Part shown: one piece after another, positions 8,104 to 55,305 of the stretch
How positions within the stretch are numbered: position 1 is the stretch's first letter
How the letters are laid out: each line of letters begins with the position of its first letter
Origin: Heliorestis convoluta
GTDB lineage: Bacteria; Bacillota; Desulfitobacteriia; Heliobacteriales; Heliobacteriaceae
Assembly (NCBI RefSeq): GCF_009649955.1
Contig: NZ_CP045875.1
Coordinates: forward strand, 911,501-975,500
Reading direction: 5' to 3'
DNA length: 64,000 bases
Program-made: the position numbers and the translations under genes
Notes under the pieces: generated by a model
Database searches by the model: none
The model's input: only the letters and a program-made list of their open reading frames with translations
What the model was told of the DNA's origin: nothing

Positions 8104-8415
8104 TTGCCCGTGATCGCAGAAGTCACCATCGTTCCCCTAGGCACAAAAAGCCCAAGCCTAAGCCCCTACGTAGCTGCCTGCCATCGTATACTGCAAGAAG
8201 CAACGGACATACGCTATCAACTCACACCCATGTCCACCATTATAGAAGGCGAACTTCCTCGAATCCTAGAAATCGTCCAGAAAATGCACCAAGTTCCCTT
8301 TGACGAAGGTGCCCAACGAGTCTCCACAACCATACGCATCGACGACCGCAGAGACAAATCCAACACCATGGAAGGAAAAGTAAACTCTGTAATCCTTGCC
8401 ATCGGTACCAAATAG
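8104..8415 (+). CDS. MTH1187-family (DUF77/YqgV-like) thiamine-binding protein
   Basis: This 103-residue protein matches the small ferredoxin-like-fold MTH1187/YkoF-type family. Characteristic segments are VTIVPLGTKSPSLSPYVA at the N-terminus, YQLTPMSTIIEG in the middle and RVSTTIRIDDRRDK near the end. Family members bind thiamine or related pyrimidines and form oligomers. The TTG start follows a perfect AGAGGAGGAATT site. It is 18 bp downstream of the B12 radical SAM gene and is probably co-transcribed with it. The tenI-thiE genes lie far away at 32.5-33.9 kb. Confidence 0.85.
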   Translation: MPVIAEVTIVPLGTKSPSLSPYVAACHRILQEATDIRYQLTPMSTIIEGELPRILEIVQKMHQVPFDEGAQRVSTTIRIDDRRDKSNTMEGKVNSVILAIGTK

Positions 8416-8452
8416 TGTATATCCCTCACCCTTAATGGCAATAATTGTGTAG

Positions 8453-9502
<1,050 letters not shown>

Positions 9503-9875
9503 AGTTGTGGGGGGCGCCTCTACCCCCCACGTGCAGGTCTCGCAGAAAGCAATAGAAGAAAGCATTTGCCACTCTACAAAGCAAGGTAAAAAATCTCCAC
9601 TAGCACTATTATTTCGCAAGACAAACCTTGACTAGCAGCATTACCACAAGGAAAAAGTAAGTACAAGCAGGAACAAAAAAAAGCAACGTCGAAACAATAC
9701 CAGCATAAGAAAGATAAGTTATTTATAGGCGAAAAGAACCACATGCTACGTAGGGTTCGCATCCACATACAATACATACCTATCATGATAGGCATCACTT
9801 AACAAAGAAAAAAGGGGGGTCAGGCCGGCTTCTCCTGTTGATACCAACGAGATGAGAGCGGCAAAAGAGATATAT
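9503..9875. other. Intergenic region upstream of murA
   Basis: About 370 bp without a convincing gene. After the GC-rich hairpin at 9507-9530 it is A-rich. A perfect 14-bp palindrome (CCTATCATGATAGG, 9779-9792) lies about 85 bp before the murA start and could be an operator. No clear -35/-10 pair was found, and a GGTTCGCATCC string near 9753 does not sit in a tRNA fold. Confidence 0.5.
9507..9530 (+). terminator. GC-rich hairpin behind the YwmB-like gene
   Basis: GTGGGGGG pairs with CCCCCCAC around an 8-nt loop directly after the stop codon. There is no T-run, so it may be a weak terminator or a 3' end stabiliser. Confidence 0.5.
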
Positions 9876-11144
9876 ATGGAAGAAAAAATTATCGTCACCG
9901 GAGGAAAGCCTCTACAAGGCCGGATCAAAGTCAGTAACGCCAAAAACGCGGTCCTTCCCATCCTCATCGCCTCTCTTCTCGGTGAAGGTGAATCAAAAAT
10001 CCTAGAAGTCCCACACCTAACCGATGTTGACACCACCTGTGCAGTTTTACAACATCTAGGACAAGAAGTAGCCCGTGAAAACGGCAATATTATCATACGC
10101 AGCGCCAAACCAACCAGTTTTGAAGCACCTTACCAGTATGTCAGGCGCATGAGAGCCTCCTTCTTGCTCATCGGACCTTTGCTCACCCGTTATGGACAAG
10201 CCAAAATCCCCCTGCCTGGCGGCTGTGCCATCGGCTCAAGACCGATTAACCTACATCTCAAAGGACTCGAAGCCATGGGAGCGAAAGTCAATCTCGAACA
10301 TGGCCACGTAGAAGCCCACTGTCAAAGACTGCAGGGCGCCCGCATCTACCTAGACTTTCCCTCCGTCGGCGCCACCGAAAACCTGATCATGGCCGCTGCC
10401 TTAGCCAAAGGCCAAACCATCATCGAAAATGCCGCCGAAGAACCGGAAATCGTTGACCTTGCCAACTACCTCAACGCCATGGGTGCCAAAGTCAAAGGCG
10501 CCGGCACAACAGTTATCAAAATCGAAGGCGTCAAAGAACTACAAGGCACGACCCACACCCCCATCCCTGACCGCATCGAAGCGGGCTCTTACATGGTAGC
10601 CGCTGCCGCCACACGCAGCGACCTGACCATCGACAACGTCATCGCCGAACACCTCAAGCCCGTCATCGCCAAGCTCAAAGAAATGGGCATCCCCATAGAA
10701 GAAGGAGAAAGCTCCATCCGCATCCGTCCCTACCAAGAAGAGATCAAAGCCGTCGATATTAAAACCCTCCCATACCCCGGTTTTCCCACAGACATGCAAG
10801 CCCAGATGATGGCCCTCAACTGCATCTGCAAAGGCACCGGCGTCATTACCGAAACAGTCTTTGAAAACCGCTTCATGCACGTCGACGAACTCAAGCGGAT
10901 GGGAGCCAAAATCAAAGTCGAAAGCCGCAGCGCCATCATAGAAGGCGTCAAAAACCTCTCCGGCGCCCCCGTCAAAGCCACAGACCTCCGCGCCGGCGCC
11001 GCCCTCATCATCGCCGCCCTCAGCACCGAAGCCTCCACCGAAATCGGCGCCCTCGAACACATCGACCGCGGCTACGACAACATCGTCGGCAAACTCCAAC
11101 AAGCCGGCGCCAGAATCGAGAGAACGAATGGGAACGGGGGATAA
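9876..11144 (+). CDS. murA: UDP-N-acetylglucosamine 1-carboxyvinyltransferase (MurA)
   Basis: This enzyme transfers enolpyruvate from PEP to UDP-GlcNAc, the first committed step of peptidoglycan synthesis. From the chosen ATG at 9876 it is 422 residues long and starts [10 protein letters not shown], the usual family N-terminus. An in-frame ATG at 9852 would add eight residues (MRAAKEIY) but has no better ribosome site. The catalytic cysteine is Cys117 in [11 protein letters not shown], and Lys/Asn in KVSNAKNAV are the substrate-binding residues. The last third of the gene is unusually rich in C-ending codons. A strong terminator follows directly. Confidence 0.96.
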
Positions 11145-47695: not shown

Positions 47696-50251
47696 CTATA
47701 ATTTATCGGACCCATAGGTTGCAATTTCGCCTAAAGCCCATTGCGTCTTTTCAAATTCCTTGAGTAACTTTTCTAGAGATTCCTCAAGCCCTTCTGATAC
47801 CCTTTTTCTTCCTAGATTTTCCATATAAGCGCATTGTTCAGAAAGTGCCAGGGCACCTAGGCTAGCACTGCTTGATTTCATACTATGGGCTACTTTTTCC
47901 AGCACATAACAATCTTTTTGCGTTACAGCCTGACGCAACGCCTCAATTCGTGGTTGTGTGTCTTCGAGATACATTCCAATCACTTGTTGTAAAAATTCAG
48001 GCTCACTATCCATAGCAAGCTCATGAATATCTCTCAGTGAACGAAGGTCTAGGATCTCTTCTATCTTCCAATTTTTCTCTATTTCGTCTTTGTTCAGCTC
48101 CAGATTATTCACAAGTTCGTCCTCCTTCGTCACTGTAATCGCACTTTTTTCTTGGTTACCTTCCTTTTCTACCATCGCTTTTTCTGATATTCCTTTCTTT
48201 TTCTTTAGCCATTGCGTTAACACTTTACGCAGCTCTTCGAGCTTCACAGGCTTGCACAGATAATCATCCATGCCAGAGCGAATGCATTGCTCCCGATCAC
48301 CAACAAGGGCTCTTGCCGTCACAGCAATAATGGGCGTATAGCGCCCCATGATCGCTTCCATTTCTCGAATAATCCCGGTGGCCTCATACCCATCCATCAT
48401 AGGCATCTGACAGTCCATCAGAATAGCAGCATATTGATTCTTTGACAGGGCCTCTACCGCTTCTCTCCCATTGTTTACAATGTGAGTAACAACACCTAAC
48501 TTTTTCAACTGCATCAAAGCCAATTTTTGATTTACTTTGTTGTCTTCGGCTAACAATATAGATCTACCTGCTAAAAGATCCTGCAAACTTTCTTCCTCAC
48601 AAAAAGGCATCTCTTTTCGGTCTGAATCTAGGGTTGTTTTCAAAAGAACTTCTTCTTGTTCATGCAGAAGAGGAAGAGAAACCCAGAAGGTAGCACCTTC
48701 ACCTTGTATACTCTGAGTGCCAATCTGTCCACCCATTATTTCCACAAGACGCTTCGTAATAGCAAGACCGAGACCGGTACCACCATACTTTCGAGTTGTT
48801 GAACTGTCCGCTTGCGTAAAAGGGTTAAAAAGACGTTGTTGCATCTCCTCAGAAATGCCAATTCCCGAATCGCTCACTTCAAAGCGAATGGTGCTATACA
48901 GTTTATCCTGTTCTTGTAGCTTTGTTTCTAATTGCACATACCCTCGTGCAGTAAACTTAATAGCATTGCTTAATAAATTCATTAAGATCTGATGGAGACG
49001 TCTCGCATCACCTCGGAATAAACGGGGCGTTGTTTGATCAAAATGAGTGGCAAAGGTAAGCCCTTTCATTTTCGCTTTGGGTTCAATGATTTTTTTTATA
49101 TCTTCAATTAAGTTGTGCAAATCAAAAGTATACTGTTCTAGATCTACTTTTTCTGCTTCAATCTTGGAAAAGTCTAATACGTCATTCATGATCGAAAGAA
49201 GAAGGTTGGCCGAATCGCGGATAATATTTACATAGCTACGTTCTTCTTTCTCATCAATCATATCGCCTAGTAGCTCAGTCATACCAATAATACCGTGCAA
49301 GGGTGTCCGAATTTCATGACTCATCGTAGCAAGAAAAGCACTCTTGGCCTGGCTTGCTAACTCTGCTTTCTCTTTCGCTTCTCGCAGCTCTACTTCTGCA
49401 TTTTTCCGCTCTGTAATGTCTCGAGAAACAGAAATGACTTCATGAATTTGCCTTGTGTCAGGATTGCAAATGGCCTGATTGGTCGTTTCGAACCAGATAT
49501 ATTGACCATCTTTTTTCCGGATTCGATACTGCAGTGTATACGTTTCTCTTCCAGGCGTTCCCACGGAAAAAAGCTCACGACCCTGCTCTTCTAAATCACA
49601 AGGGTGAAAAAACTCATAGACCGAGTGCCCTAGCAATTCCTTGGGCTCGTAGCCTAACAAAGGCTTGGCAGCAGGTGAAGCATAAAGAAAGGTGCCTTCT
49701 ATAGAATGTCGGGAAATAAGGTCTGATGAATGCTCGGCCAATAAATGATATCGCTCTTCGCTCGTTTCTAGCTTTTTGGCCATTCTACGCTGTAAAGTGA
49801 TCAATTCGTTATTCAATCTTGTTAATTCATCATAAAGCTCTTTATCTCGAAGAGCTTGCACCGTCGCTTGTAAAGAAAGATTTTTTAAGGCTTTGCGCAG
49901 CGCTGTTGTCTGCTCATTGTTGATTTTCATCATTTCGCCATAAAAGCGAATAATGCCTGATCGTGATTGACTTCCTACAATCAAAAAACGCCCTTCTGTA
50001 GAACCACCAGCTAAGTAGACAAGCGTAGGGCTGTTGTTTACATTAATATAAAACTCCCAGTCAAAAACAGCACTTTGTAAACGAAGCATGGCTAAAAAAT
50101 TTTCTGCCTTATCTACACTATCTTCAGAAACAAGATAGCGAAAATGCATTCCTTCTTCTACATTCAGTCCCAACTCATCACGAATCACACGTAATATGAT
50201 TCCATCATAATCACAAAGAACAGAGATGCCAGCGCTTTCTTCTTGCATCAT
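47696..50251 (-). CDS. Hybrid sensor histidine kinase with PAS domains, receiver and Hpt
   Basis: An 851-residue cytoplasmic phosphorelay protein. Order: an N-terminal PAS-like sensor (about 8-115), a helical linker, a PAS/PAC domain (about 165-290), a HisKA dimerisation domain with His312 in FLATMSHEIRTPLHG, a HATPase (about 415-535, SDSGIGIS and YGGTGLGLA), a receiver domain with Asp613 in LMDCQMPMMDG, and an Hpt domain with His789 in VAHSMKSS. No membrane segments. It follows a B12-binding light-sensor-like gene by 52 bp on the same strand and is probably co-transcribed with it. Confidence 0.94.
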   Translation of the reverse strand: MMQEESAGISVLCDYDGIILRVIRDELGLNVEEGMHFRYLVSEDSVDKAENFLAMLRLQSAVFDWEFYINVNNSPTLVYLAGGSTEGRFLIVGSQSRSGIIRFYGEMMKINNEQTTALRKALKNLSLQATVQALRDKELYDELTRLNNELITLQRRMAKKLETSEERYHLLAEHSSDLISRHSIEGTFLYASPAAKPLLGYEPKELLGHSVYEFFHPCDLEEQGRELFSVGTPGRETYTLQYRIRKKDGQYIWFETTNQAICNPDTRQIHEVISVSRDITERKNAEVELREAKEKAELASQAKSAFLATMSHEIRTPLHGIIGMTELLGDMIDEKEERSYVNIIRDSANLLLSIMNDVLDFSKIEAEKVDLEQYTFDLHNLIEDIKKIIEPKAKMKGLTFATHFDQTTPRLFRGDARRLHQILMNLLSNAIKFTARGYVQLETKLQEQDKLYSTIRFEVSDSGIGISEEMQQRLFNPFTQADSSTTRKYGGTGLGLAITKRLVEIMGGQIGTQSIQGEGATFWVSLPLLHEQEEVLLKTTLDSDRKEMPFCEEESLQDLLAGRSILLAEDNKVNQKLALMQLKKLGVVTHIVNNGREAVEALSKNQYAAILMDCQMPMMDGYEATGIIREMEAIMGRYTPIIAVTARALVGDREQCIRSGMDDYLCKPVKLEELRKVLTQWLKKKKGISEKAMVEKEGNQEKSAITVTKEDELVNNLELNKDEIEKNWKIEEILDLRSLRDIHELAMDSEPEFLQQVIGMYLEDTQPRIEALRQAVTQKDCYVLEKVAHSMKSSSASLGALALSEQCAYMENLGRKRVSEGLEESLEKLLKEFEKTQWALGEIATYGSDKL

Positions 50252-50303
50252 TCAAGGAGAAACCTCCCTTCCCTCACCACGCTTACGTGGAGCAGGCAAA
50301 CGG

Positions 50304-51383
50304 CTACAAAAGATTTTGTAACCTCTCTCCAACTATAACCGCTTCATTGGCATCTCTTGCATAACCGTCAGCTCCCACATTTTTCCATAAACCAGGCGCG
50401 ATGTTAAAAGGATAACCGCCCACAATAATCTTCACATTGTTACAACTTTTCTCAGCTCGCACTGCTTCAATCACCCTGGTTATATTCGTGACGTGATAGG
50501 TCATCGTAGCTGACAACGCTAAGAGATGGGCGTTCCATTCTTTGATCGCTGAAATAATCCCAGCTGTAGGCGTACTGGCCCCTAGATAATAAGTATCCCA
50601 ACCTTCCATCTCAAAAAAGTCAGCTACCATCCGAATGCCCATTTCATGAAGATCACCACCTACCGATGTAGCAACGAGTCGATATCCATTTTTGGGAACA
50701 CTGAAGATATGAGGATAGAGCTGTGACATGATTAATTGCGTTGCCGCTGTACAGTAATGTTCTTGCGCCACCGATATGCGATTGATCTGCCAGAGACGTC
50801 CTATCTCATACTGCGTTCGCTGAAATACATGCATATAAATATCTTTAATCGCCGCGCCTTGATGAACTGCTTTATCTATTAACTCTTTTGCTTTTTCCCG
50901 TTCCCCCTCTAATAAAGCTTGTAAATAGGCAGTGGCGAGGTCGTTCCACACCTGACTGTCCTGGCTGTTACTTCCATCAGCAAAAGGTACCACCTGCAAG
51001 GGCATCGTAGGCAACTGCTGCTGGGCTATCTCTATATAGGGAGTCACAATGGCATCCGCTTTATCCGGTAAATAGTCTCTCAGTACCGTTAAAGTCTGGC
51101 CTAAGTGAACTCGCAAGTCCTCTTGAGAAACACCGATTCCATCTAACAAAACTTTAAGCCAAGCGATATGATCAAGAAAGAGCAGCGGTTGACCAGCACG
51201 GATCGCTTCAGATAGATAGGCCAGATGGCTTTCAAAATCCTGCATAGCCCTGTCCTTATCCAATTGACGAAACTTTTTGCTTAATTCATTAGATAAAGAA
51301 AGTTGTCGCTCATAAAGTTTACGAGCTAGAATAGCTCGTTGTGCATCGATCGCTTTGCTCACACTACCGTTAAGATCAGTCAT
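50304..51383 (-). CDS. B12-binding photosensor-like protein (CarH-type sensor without HTH)
   Basis: A 359-residue protein with two sensor parts. A helical bundle (about 140-230) contains the W-x9-EH motif, Trp198, Glu208, His209 (RLWQINRISVAQEH). The B12-binding Rossmann domain (about 230-359) has the cobalt-ligand motif DxHxxG as Asp244, His246, Gly249 (GGDLHEMG). In CarH this set holds adenosylcobalamin as a light-sensitive dark state, and the spacing between the two histidines (37) is close to that of CarH (35). There is no MerR-type DNA-binding domain; the N-terminal 140 residues are helical and unknown. An AAGGAGG site precedes the ATG. The next gene is a hybrid kinase. A methyltransferase-type corrinoid protein is the alternative, but those lack Wx9EH. 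Confidence 0.85.
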   Translation of the reverse strand: MTDLNGSVSKAIDAQRAILARKLYERQLSLSNELSKKFRQLDKDRAMQDFESHLAYLSEAIRAGQPLLFLDHIAWLKVLLDGIGVSQEDLRVHLGQTLTVLRDYLPDKADAIVTPYIEIAQQQLPTMPLQVVPFADGSNSQDSQVWNDLATAYLQALLEGEREKAKELIDKAVHQGAAIKDIYMHVFQRTQYEIGRLWQINRISVAQEHYCTAATQLIMSQLYPHIFSVPKNGYRLVATSVGGDLHEMGIRMVADFFEMEGWDTYYLGASTPTAGIISAIKEWNAHLLALSATMTYHVTNITRVIEAVRAEKSCNNVKIIVGGYPFNIAPGLWKNVGADGYARDANEAVIVGERLQNLL

Positions 51384-53155: not shown

Positions 53156-55305
53156 TTATCGTATAGAACAATTGTCGAAGAGCATCACTTTCTCAGATGC
53201 TCTTTTCATAAAATAGTTTTGGCTTTCGAATGGCTCTTCTCCGTAAGTTGCGATTTCATAAGTGCCGTCCGGATTCATACGGCGCGCTTTCACATTGTCT
53301 CTGAGCATAATCTCTAAAGCTTCTTTCAACCGGTGGCGCAGTTTTTCATCTCTCACAGGAAAAAGGAGTTCAATTCGTCGTTCCAAATTGCGATGCATCC
53401 AGTCAGCACTTGAAAGATAGGCCTCTTCTTCTCCACCGTTTTGAAAGTAAAAGATGCGATGATGCTCCAAGAACCTACCCACAATGCTAATCACTCGAAT
53501 ATTATCACTAACACCTGGAAGGCCGGGACGAAGGCAACATATCCCCCGTACAATGAGATCAATTTTTACACCAGCACAAGAAGCTTTGTAGAGACATTGA
53601 ATCATTCTTTCATCATTAAGTGAATTCATCTTGGCAATAATTCGCCCAGGCTTTTCTGATGTACTTACAGAAATCTCCCGTTCAATCAACTCTTCAAAAC
53701 GCTTGCGCATACCTAAAGGAGCGACGGCCAATTGGCGCCACCGCGCAGGAATGGAATAGCCCGTCACTTCATTGTAAAAATCAGTGGCATCAGCACCAAA
53801 TTCTTCGGCCGACGTAAAGAGACCATAGTCTGTATAGAATCGGGCTGTCATGTCGTTATAATTTCCTGTTCCAAGGTGAACATAACGACGAATACGTCCC
53901 TCTTCTTGCCGCACTACTAAGGTGATTTTGGAGTGAGTTTTTAAGTTTACCAGTCCATAAATAACGTGACAGCCTGCTTTTTCTAGTTTCTTGGCCCAGG
54001 CAATGTTTTTTTCTTCATCAAAACGTGCTTTCAATTCCACCAGTACCGTTACTTGTTTGCCATTGCGCACGGCTTCAGCAAGGGCTCGAATAATCGGTGA
54101 GTCACCACTAACTCGATAAAGCGTCTGCTTAATCGCCAACACTTGTGGATCTCGGGCCGCTCGTGTTACAAAGTCAACGACACAATTGAACGACTCATAG
54201 GGATGATGAACAAGAATATCTTTTTTCGCAATGGCTTCAAATATATCTTTTTCTCCAAGTAAGTCTTCCGGGACTTGTGGTTTCATGGGTTTGTAGCGAA
54301 GATGATCGTAGCCCTTTAGGTCATATAAGGTCATCAATGCTGTCAGATCAAGGGGTCCTGCTATGAGATAAATATCTTTCTCATCCAGTTCGAGCTCTTC
54401 TTGTAAATATTGCTTTAATATAGGACTTACAGAAGCTTCTACTTCCAGACGAACCTCGGCGCCCCACTTTCGCTTCTGCAACTCTTTTTCAATGGCCAAC
54501 AAAAGGTCTTCTGCACCTTCTTCGTCTACAGATAAGTCGGCATTTCTGGTAATGCGAAAAGAAACGGCATCAACAAAGGTGTTACCACGAAAAAGCACTG
54601 GCAAATGATTTTTAATCACTTCTTCCAAAGCCAAAAAAGCGTGTCCTTGCTCTACTGGAATGGAGATAAATCGAGGCAAAACAGAGGTACTTGCACAACA
54701 CCAAAAAGAAGGCGTTTGCAAATCAGCGGTTGATGAGGCTCTAACAGAACAGCCACGTTAAGACTTTTGTTCGCAAGAAGAGGAAAAGGGCGGCTCTGAT
54801 CAACAGCCATAGGCGTTAATACGGGATATACAATATGTTCAAAGTACTCTTCTATAAAAGCTTGTTGGGTAGCATCCAGTTGGTCATAAGAAAGAATGTG
54901 GATCCCCTCTTTATGCAACTGTGGCAACAACTGCTCTGTTAGCTCTTCGTATTGTTCTCCTACGAGACGATGAACTCGCTCAGAAATCAATTGTAGTTGC
55001 TCTAGCGGTGTCAAGCCAGCGGCATCTTTTTTGCGAAAACCGGCTTCCACTTGATCTTGTACGCCTGCTACACGCACCATAAAAAACTCATCGAGGTTGG
55101 AGCTCACAATAGCAAGAAACTTAAAGCGTTCCAACAAAGGATTGTTGTGATTGAGTGCTTCCTCCAATACTCGATGGTTAAACTCAAGCCAACTTAATTC
55201 CCGATTAATATAATAATCGGGAGATAAGAATGACTCCGTTTCCTCACATAATTCTATTTTCTTTTTTTCTTCTACTTCAATCGATTGAAGTCTACCACTG
55301 TACAT
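53156..55305 (-). pseudogene. ppk: Polyphosphate kinase 1 with a single-base frameshift
   Basis: PPK1 makes inorganic polyphosphate from ATP. The 5' part (55305 to about 54690) encodes the N-terminal domain (YINRELSWLEFNHRVLEEA, SNLDEFFMVRVAG). The 3' part (about 54690 to 53156) encodes the head and catalytic domains, including the phospho-histidine region NLKTHSKITLV and VHLGTGNYND. At about 54684-54688 the frame breaks: one frame ends FGVVQVPLF, the other starts TSVLPRFISIP. The family continues VQVPSVLPRF, so exactly one base is missing. All catalytic residues remain, so a functional gene with a sequencing error or a recent mutation are both possible. AAGGAG lies 12 nt before the ATG. Together with ppx it forms a polyphosphate locus. 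Confidence 0.9.

Follow-up and report, generated by a model that had tools for sequence, protein, structure and literature searches.

The closest described relatives of the system analysed here are the photocobilins SasPcob and AbDPcob (PMC10979010; PDB 8J2W, 8J2X, 8J2Y), which combine an adenosylcobalamin (AdoCbl)-binding domain carrying the motifs W-x9/10-EH and DxH with a phycobiliprotein-like globin. In SasPcob, Trp296 contacts both the D ring of the bilin and the corrin; a globin-first class of photocobilins has already been mentioned, and photocobilin domains that stand alone are able to control a second protein through contact (PMC10979010). Photoglobins, characterised by a CxQD motif (PMC10151467), share the fusion of globin and B12-binding domain, and the BBAG-2 globins link a bilin-binding globin genetically to a B12-binding protein and a heme oxygenase, the globin and the B12 protein being encoded there by separate genes (PMC10151467). 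The light-responsive CarH/LitR proteins (PDB 5C8D-F, 8C31) use an AdoCbl pocket of Trp, Glu and His together with a lower axial His. Here we describe a gene pair, consisting of a globin-first photocobilin-type protein (hereafter the sensor) and an adjoining hybrid histidine kinase, in a 64,000-nucleotide stretch (the window) of the single-contig, 3,218,981-base genome of Heliorestis convoluta (contig NZ_CP045875.1, positions 911,501 to 975,500). Heliobacteria are strictly anaerobic phototrophs (PMC7143216). The two genes and the elements of the sensor are, in window coordinates:

50304-51383, minus strand: candidate photoreceptor (sensor), 359 amino acids, photoglobin (phycobiliprotein-like) domain plus AdoCbl-binding domain (open reading frame (ORF) list, Pfam, structure model, profile search)
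51003-51383, minus strand: photoglobin domain, residues 1-127 (family profile, PF00502 in relatives, AlphaFold2)
51237-51248, minus strand: A46-M-Q-D49, counterpart of the photoglobin CxQD and phycobiliprotein CxRD bilin motif (D49 = SasPcob Asp270)
51159-51161, minus strand: W75 (= SasPcob Trp296; 71/71 homologues)
50718-50936, minus strand: four-helix bundle, B12-binding_2, residues 150-222 (PF02607, E = 2e-17)
50757-50792, minus strand: W198-x9-E208-H209, adenosyl pocket and dimer-interface motif (= SasPcob Trp61, Glu71, His72; 71/71)
50337-50681, minus strand: Rossmann-type B12-binding domain, residues 235-349 (PF02310, E = 7.9e-26)
50637-50654, minus strand: D244-L-H246-E-M-G249, His as lower axial cobalt ligand (= SasPcob His108; 71/71)
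47696-50251, minus strand: partner hybrid histidine kinase, 851 amino acids (ORF list, Pfam)

The sensor gene lies upstream of the kinase gene on the same strand with a gap of 52 bp, as the initial annotation had stated. That annotation had taken the sensor for a CarH-like protein merely lacking its DNA-binding domain. Pfam indeed found no MerR-type helix-turn-helix (HTH) in it, and the described residues Trp198, Glu208, His209 and, within DxHxxG, His246 are all present. What had been overlooked is that the N-terminus is a phycobiliprotein-like photoglobin domain. A single-sequence search of the N-terminal 130 residues gave no Pfam match. A profile of the family N-terminus matched the C-terminal globin of SasPcob (E = 2e-9), AbPcob (2e-6) and allophycocyanin (1.7e-6), and PF00502 (Phycobilisome) was matched by 25 of 38 family members on their own sequence. 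AlphaFold2 modelled the sensor with a predicted local distance difference test score (pLDDT) of 93.9, the N-terminal domain being all helical and mostly above 90. Since Foldseek and VIA searches with the whole model aligned the B12-binding half only, the domain order being reversed, the globin assignment rests on the sequence profiles. Residues were mapped onto SasPcob by anchoring on Trp61 and Trp296, the numbering of entry 8J2W running 6 ahead of the chain index. Asp49 was retained in 69 of the 71 homologues and Trp75 in every one, both being present in all heliobacteria. The photoglobin CxQD fits family positions 46-49; position 46 is Cys in 17/71 homologues and Ala in all heliobacteria, which thus carry AxQD. 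With its photoglobin N-terminus the protein is of the photocobilin type and may have a second site for a tetrapyrrole. Membership among photocobilin-type proteins is, on these comparisons, almost certain, and the protein is accordingly best described as a putative standalone photocobilin of the globin-first class.

The B12-binding half told the same story. A light-response signature of cobalamin domains has been published as GxxW, EH, GxxH and GxxxP (PMC11796333), and it is complete in the sensor, with GRLW at 195, EH at 208, GDLH at 243 and GASTP at 268. When the eight best-matching B12-binding ORFs of the genome were compared, Wx9EH was unique to the sensor. The nearest solved chains were photocobilins (phmmer E = 3e-24), followed by CarH-type domains, and structural comparison of the B12-binding half gave a VIA Z of 26.8 with a root mean square deviation of 1.6 over 208 residues against photocobilins, versus a Z of about 20.5 against CarH. 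The position of the second axial ligand in CarH, His132, is occupied by Gln199, a position that is Gln in 55 of the 71 homologues and His in seven. Unlike CarH/LitR, the Heliorestis protein thus has Gln199 for His132, no MerR HTH and an additional photoglobin domain. SasPcob, with which it shares the AdoCbl residues as well as the Asp and Trp that are central to bilin binding, has no CarH-type second axial His either; Gln stands there too, and in its light state water, not a second His, is the ligand (PMC10979010). In contrast to SasPcob and AbDPcob, the Heliorestis protein has the globin first, a separate histidine kinase next door, and a host in which no source of biliverdin was found. Taken at the level of sequence, the predicted sensor is a member of the AdoCbl photoreceptors.

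The association of sensor and kinase was examined in 80 sensor loci from many bacterial phyla, Lokiarchaeota, Bathyarchaeota and methanogens. A survey of how often the two genes are neighbours had been proposed at the outset, and it showed that the N-terminal module of the kinase opens the next gene in 75 of the 79 loci with downstream sequence, in Bacteria and Archaea alike; 72 of these were found by an automatic rule and three (L024, L025 and L036) have overlapping ORFs that begin earlier. Across 42 genomes, only a single and very weak match to the module lay away from a sensor gene, and the 24 other kinases encoded in the same loci were all without it. Among 398 genomes of the phylum, 14 had both genes, always adjoining, two had a weak coil match only and two had the sensor only (Fisher p = 6e-22). 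Distances between sensors were correlated with those between modules (r = 0.64; Mantel 0/2000). A chance neighbourhood is ruled out by this adjacency together with the genome-wide and phylum-wide co-occurrence, and that the pairing is real is beyond reasonable doubt. The PAS-coil module is dedicated to the sensor and almost absent elsewhere in the genomes. The two-protein signalling system of the initial annotation thus holds as far as the pairing and a private partner domain are concerned, while an action of the photosensor on the kinase is predicted from them. The sensor-kinase core ranges from Acidobacteria to Lokiarchaeota. Archaea with a photoglobin-B12 gene, Asgard metagenome-assembled genomes among them, comprised Lokiarchaeota (L042, L061, L077, L083), Bathyarchaeota (L065), Methanolobus vulcani (L074) and Methanobacteriaceae (L082); the loci L042, L077, L074 and L082 also had the adjoining kinase module or coil.

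The kinase of H. convoluta is composed as follows:

49922-50251, minus strand: N-terminal PAS-like domain, residues 1-110, part of the partner-specific module (no Pfam match; AlphaFold2 and Foldseek to PAS, E = 2e-6)
49757-49921, minus strand: coiled coil, residues 111-165, motif LYDELTRLNNELxxxQR (comparison of loci)
49403-49756, minus strand: second PAS domain, residues 166-283 (PF08447, E = 1.7e-16)
49151-49348, minus strand: HisKA, residues 302-367, phospho-acceptor His312 in MSHEIRTP (PF00512, E = 1.1e-19)
48668-49012, minus strand: HATPase_c, residues 414-528 (PF02518, E = 7.4e-30)
48218-48559, minus strand: receiver (REC), residues 565-678, phospho-acceptor Asp613 in ILMDCQMP (PF00072, E = 1e-21)
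47756-47983, minus strand: C-terminal Hpt, residues 757-832, His789 in AHSMKSSS (PF01627, E = 7.9e-12)

All hallmarks of a hybrid histidine kinase were found, namely the HisKA His, the HATPase, the REC Asp and the Hpt His. The PAS-PAS-HisKA-HATPase-REC-Hpt order proposed from the sequence was borne out by Pfam for all but the first PAS domain, which was recognised from the AlphaFold2 model and Foldseek. No 19-residue window of either the sensor or the kinase was hydrophobic enough for a membrane helix, in line with the proposal that the kinase is soluble. The module, that is the first 165 residues, has no Pfam entry, and its coil was modelled by AlphaFold2 with low confidence. Most partner kinases of the family are only about 400 amino acids long, equivalent to the module plus the kinase core. 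In Paenibacillus, L021 and Methanolobus, the coiled coil is the only part of the module that is kept, fused directly to the rest of the partner. Because the coil is common to all forms of the module, the coil with its LNNEL motif is the best candidate for the contact site. In Adhaeribacter and Rufibacter (L022, L030, L039, L048), the sensor is followed by the module alone, a protein of 164-200 amino acids without a kinase domain; such a stand-alone module is possibly an adaptor acting on another protein.

Of eight further genomes of the order that were searched, six encode the sensor. A close sensor match was missing from G087 (2.1 Mb, 87% complete) and from G085, which was also without the kinase module. 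Heliorestis carries the Hpt domain as part of the kinase itself. In the freshwater genera, REC is the last domain of the adjoining kinase, and the gene upstream encodes either REC-Hpt or a second, complete hybrid kinase that includes Hpt. Since Hpt is thus either fused or supplied by the upstream gene, the arrangement supports a His-Asp-His phosphorelay. These upstream genes, for an additional Hpt-bearing hybrid kinase or for its REC-Hpt part only, were located at L100:9057-11192 (minus strand), L102:4053-6113 (plus strand), L101:3917-4864 (plus strand) and L099:6530-7465 (plus strand). In G083, a heliobacterial genome of 3.08 Mb, a group II intron in sense orientation, with a reverse transcriptase/maturase of its own, interrupts the sensor gene (L099, about 8135-10010; G083:C1 near 1906130-1908015). 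Promoter and terminator scans gave matches at chance level only.

A possible source of a bilin was sought among the neighbouring genes. In 31 of the 80 loci, the gene upstream of the sensor is a homologue of a heme-degrading enzyme, of the IsdG type in 27 and a canonical heme oxygenase (PF01126) in four (L026, L031, L033, L034). The former is a conserved ABM protein (PF03992) of roughly 99 amino acids related to IsdI, HmoB and MhuD (for example, L010:5670-5969, L022:5597-5893, L027:5694-5993 and L048:5596-5895), with family matches down to E = 4e-14 and a match to IsdI of 3.9e-9. Compared with the catalytic residues of the IsdG monooxygenases, Trp and His are kept and the position aligned with Asn is Ser; the ABM protein is possibly a dedicated bilin-making enzyme. 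That two unrelated heme-degrading enzymes occur at the same position would indicate that the globin domain binds a bilin, and suggests local synthesis of the bilin in those relatives that have such a neighbour. Sequences with Cys46 adjoin a heme-degrading gene in 16 of 17 cases, versus 14 of 50 for the others (Fisher 1.6e-6); this link comprises only two well-supported independent pairs on the tree and was not significant after correction for descent. PF01126 was found in 11 of the 79 host genomes, and its absence from the others is suggestive only, since two of the six genomes with a phytochrome (both Rufibacter) likewise gave no match in this search. The view that the family binds no bilin, based on the 68 of 79 genomes without PF01126, was dropped after the Rufibacter misses and the adjoining IsdG-type gene, and was kept for the heliobacteria only. 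No PF01126 heme oxygenase was found in the window genome, and the heliobacteria searched had no IsdG-like gene and no HutW above the cut-off. Without recognised bilin enzymes, the heliobacterial sensor could rely on AdoCbl alone or on an unidentified tetrapyrrole, and a bilin in the heliobacterial protein is doubtful.

Based on these data we consider it fairly likely that the kinase is the dedicated output partner of a globin-first standalone photocobilin that signals in the following way. In the dark, the sensor would hold AdoCbl in a base-off, His246-on state and dimerise head to tail by way of the adenosyl pocket formed by W198/E208/H209. In green light the Co-C bond would break and the adenosyl group would be released, leaving an aquo- or hydroxocobalamin, which is expected in place of a bis-His state because Gln199 occupies the position of CarH His132. 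The altered dimer or helix geometry would be passed to the PAS-coil module of the kinase by direct protein contact, changing autophosphorylation at His312, and phosphate would move from His to Asp to His, reaching Hpt and then a response regulator encoded elsewhere. Relatives with an adjoining heme-degrading enzyme, often with Cys46, would probably have a bilin bound in the pocket of the globin and hence respond to red light; heliobacteria would probably work with AdoCbl alone or with an unidentified tetrapyrrole. That light is the signal appears quite likely, and direct contact through the PAS-coil module likely. A function by contact is inferred because published standalone photocobilin domains can regulate in this manner (PMC10979010); we likewise infer the direction of the signal and its target. 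It is about an even chance that the system is, more broadly, a widespread three-part light cassette, in which the bilin is supplied by a heme-degrading enzyme, IsdG-type or canonical, light is sensed by a photocobilin with the globin first and the signal is received by a kinase through a private PAS-coil docking module, with heliobacteria and other anaerobes lacking the bilin enzyme and using AdoCbl alone or a new bilin. Several points weigh against the photocobilin-kinase pathway as drawn. The light response and the sensor-kinase contact are predictions from sequence, domains and neighbourhood; no response regulator adjoining the sensor-kinase pair was found; the sensor occurs without the module in four loci; many hosts are uncultured and come from sediments of uncertain light; and the retention of Asp49 and Trp75 in heliobacteria without known bilin enzymes is unexplained unless these residues are structural or contact the corrin.

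Two other readings of the same pair were considered. The signal might be the level of AdoCbl, redox state or oxygen, with the B12 domain reporting coenzyme status and the globin being structural. Anaerobic hosts without a known bilin source, the many relatives from sediment and the dependence of the solved photocobilin on bound AdoCbl for activity (PMC10979010) would fit this. It is nevertheless unlikely, given that the full light-response signature is invariant, that heme-degrading genes beside 31 of the 80 homologues suit a chromophore better than a B12 gauge, and that the host is a phototroph. Alternatively, the heliobacterial globin pocket could bind a linear tetrapyrrole from an unrecognised oxygen-independent route, so that a strict anaerobe would possess a genuine photocobilin with two chromophores. 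While Asp49 and Trp75 in all heliobacteria despite the absent bilin enzymes would be accounted for, no enzyme stands out as a candidate, Ala occupies the Cys position, Trp75 could persist for the corrin contact alone and AbPcob illustrates that the pocket is able to lose most bilin binding (PMC10979010), so that this reading is rather improbable.

Two further explanations, in which the kinase would be an accidental neighbour, were rejected. A corrinoid methyl carrier resembling MtgC or MtbC was indicated by the NCBIfam model with the highest bit score, that of MtgC; its 81 bits are far below the 370 required, as are the 67 of 350 for MtbC. Wx9EH is missing from the other B12 ORFs checked in the genome, a phycobiliprotein-like domain has no role in methyl transfer and, in the heliobacterial loci scanned, no methyltransferase gene (regarded in the initial annotation as a sign of such a role) was recognised beside the pair, the kinase module being present instead; a methyl carrier is thus very improbable. 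A degraded CarH, in other words a light repressor of the MerR family from which the HTH has been lost, would agree with the CarH-like B12 domain and the missing HTH. It is refuted by the domain make-up, with a photoglobin domain of about 130 amino acids conserved in 71 homologues, and both the better structural match to photocobilins than to CarH and the conservation of the neighbour across phyla make it scarcely credible.

Photocobilins, photoglobins and the globin-first architecture are already known. The main text of PMC10151467 names no histidine kinase for BBAG-2, and the papers searched on the genomes of Heliorestis and Heliophilum mention no photoreceptor. In the literature covered, no description was found of the dedicated kinase module or the ABM neighbour. 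These, with a heme-degrading neighbour in 31 of the 80 loci, are therefore new as far as that literature extends; it did not include the photoglobin paper of Schneider et al. from 2022, which reportedly analysed gene neighbourhoods and may contain part of the kinase and ABM findings. The locus is an explicit candidate for light sensing in heliobacteria and many other microbes, and gives standalone photocobilins a concrete output in the form of a 165-residue kinase module, reduced to about 55 residues in some relatives. The pair could help in understanding green/red light signalling across Bacteria and Archaea, and it could serve as a component for optogenetics, many of the partners being short kinases of about 400 amino acids. 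The two unrelated heme-degrading enzymes at one spot point to a bilin source, and the anaerobic members raise the question whether photocobilins need a bilin at all.

Elsewhere in the window, a polyphosphate kinase gene (53156-55305, minus strand) is broken into two ORFs (54652-55305 and 53156-54721) that overlap and lie in different frames. The corresponding gene of H. acidaminivorans is a single ORF of 764 amino acids (L104:10350-12644), and the split in the window is, judged from these reading frames, a frameshift or a sequencing error.

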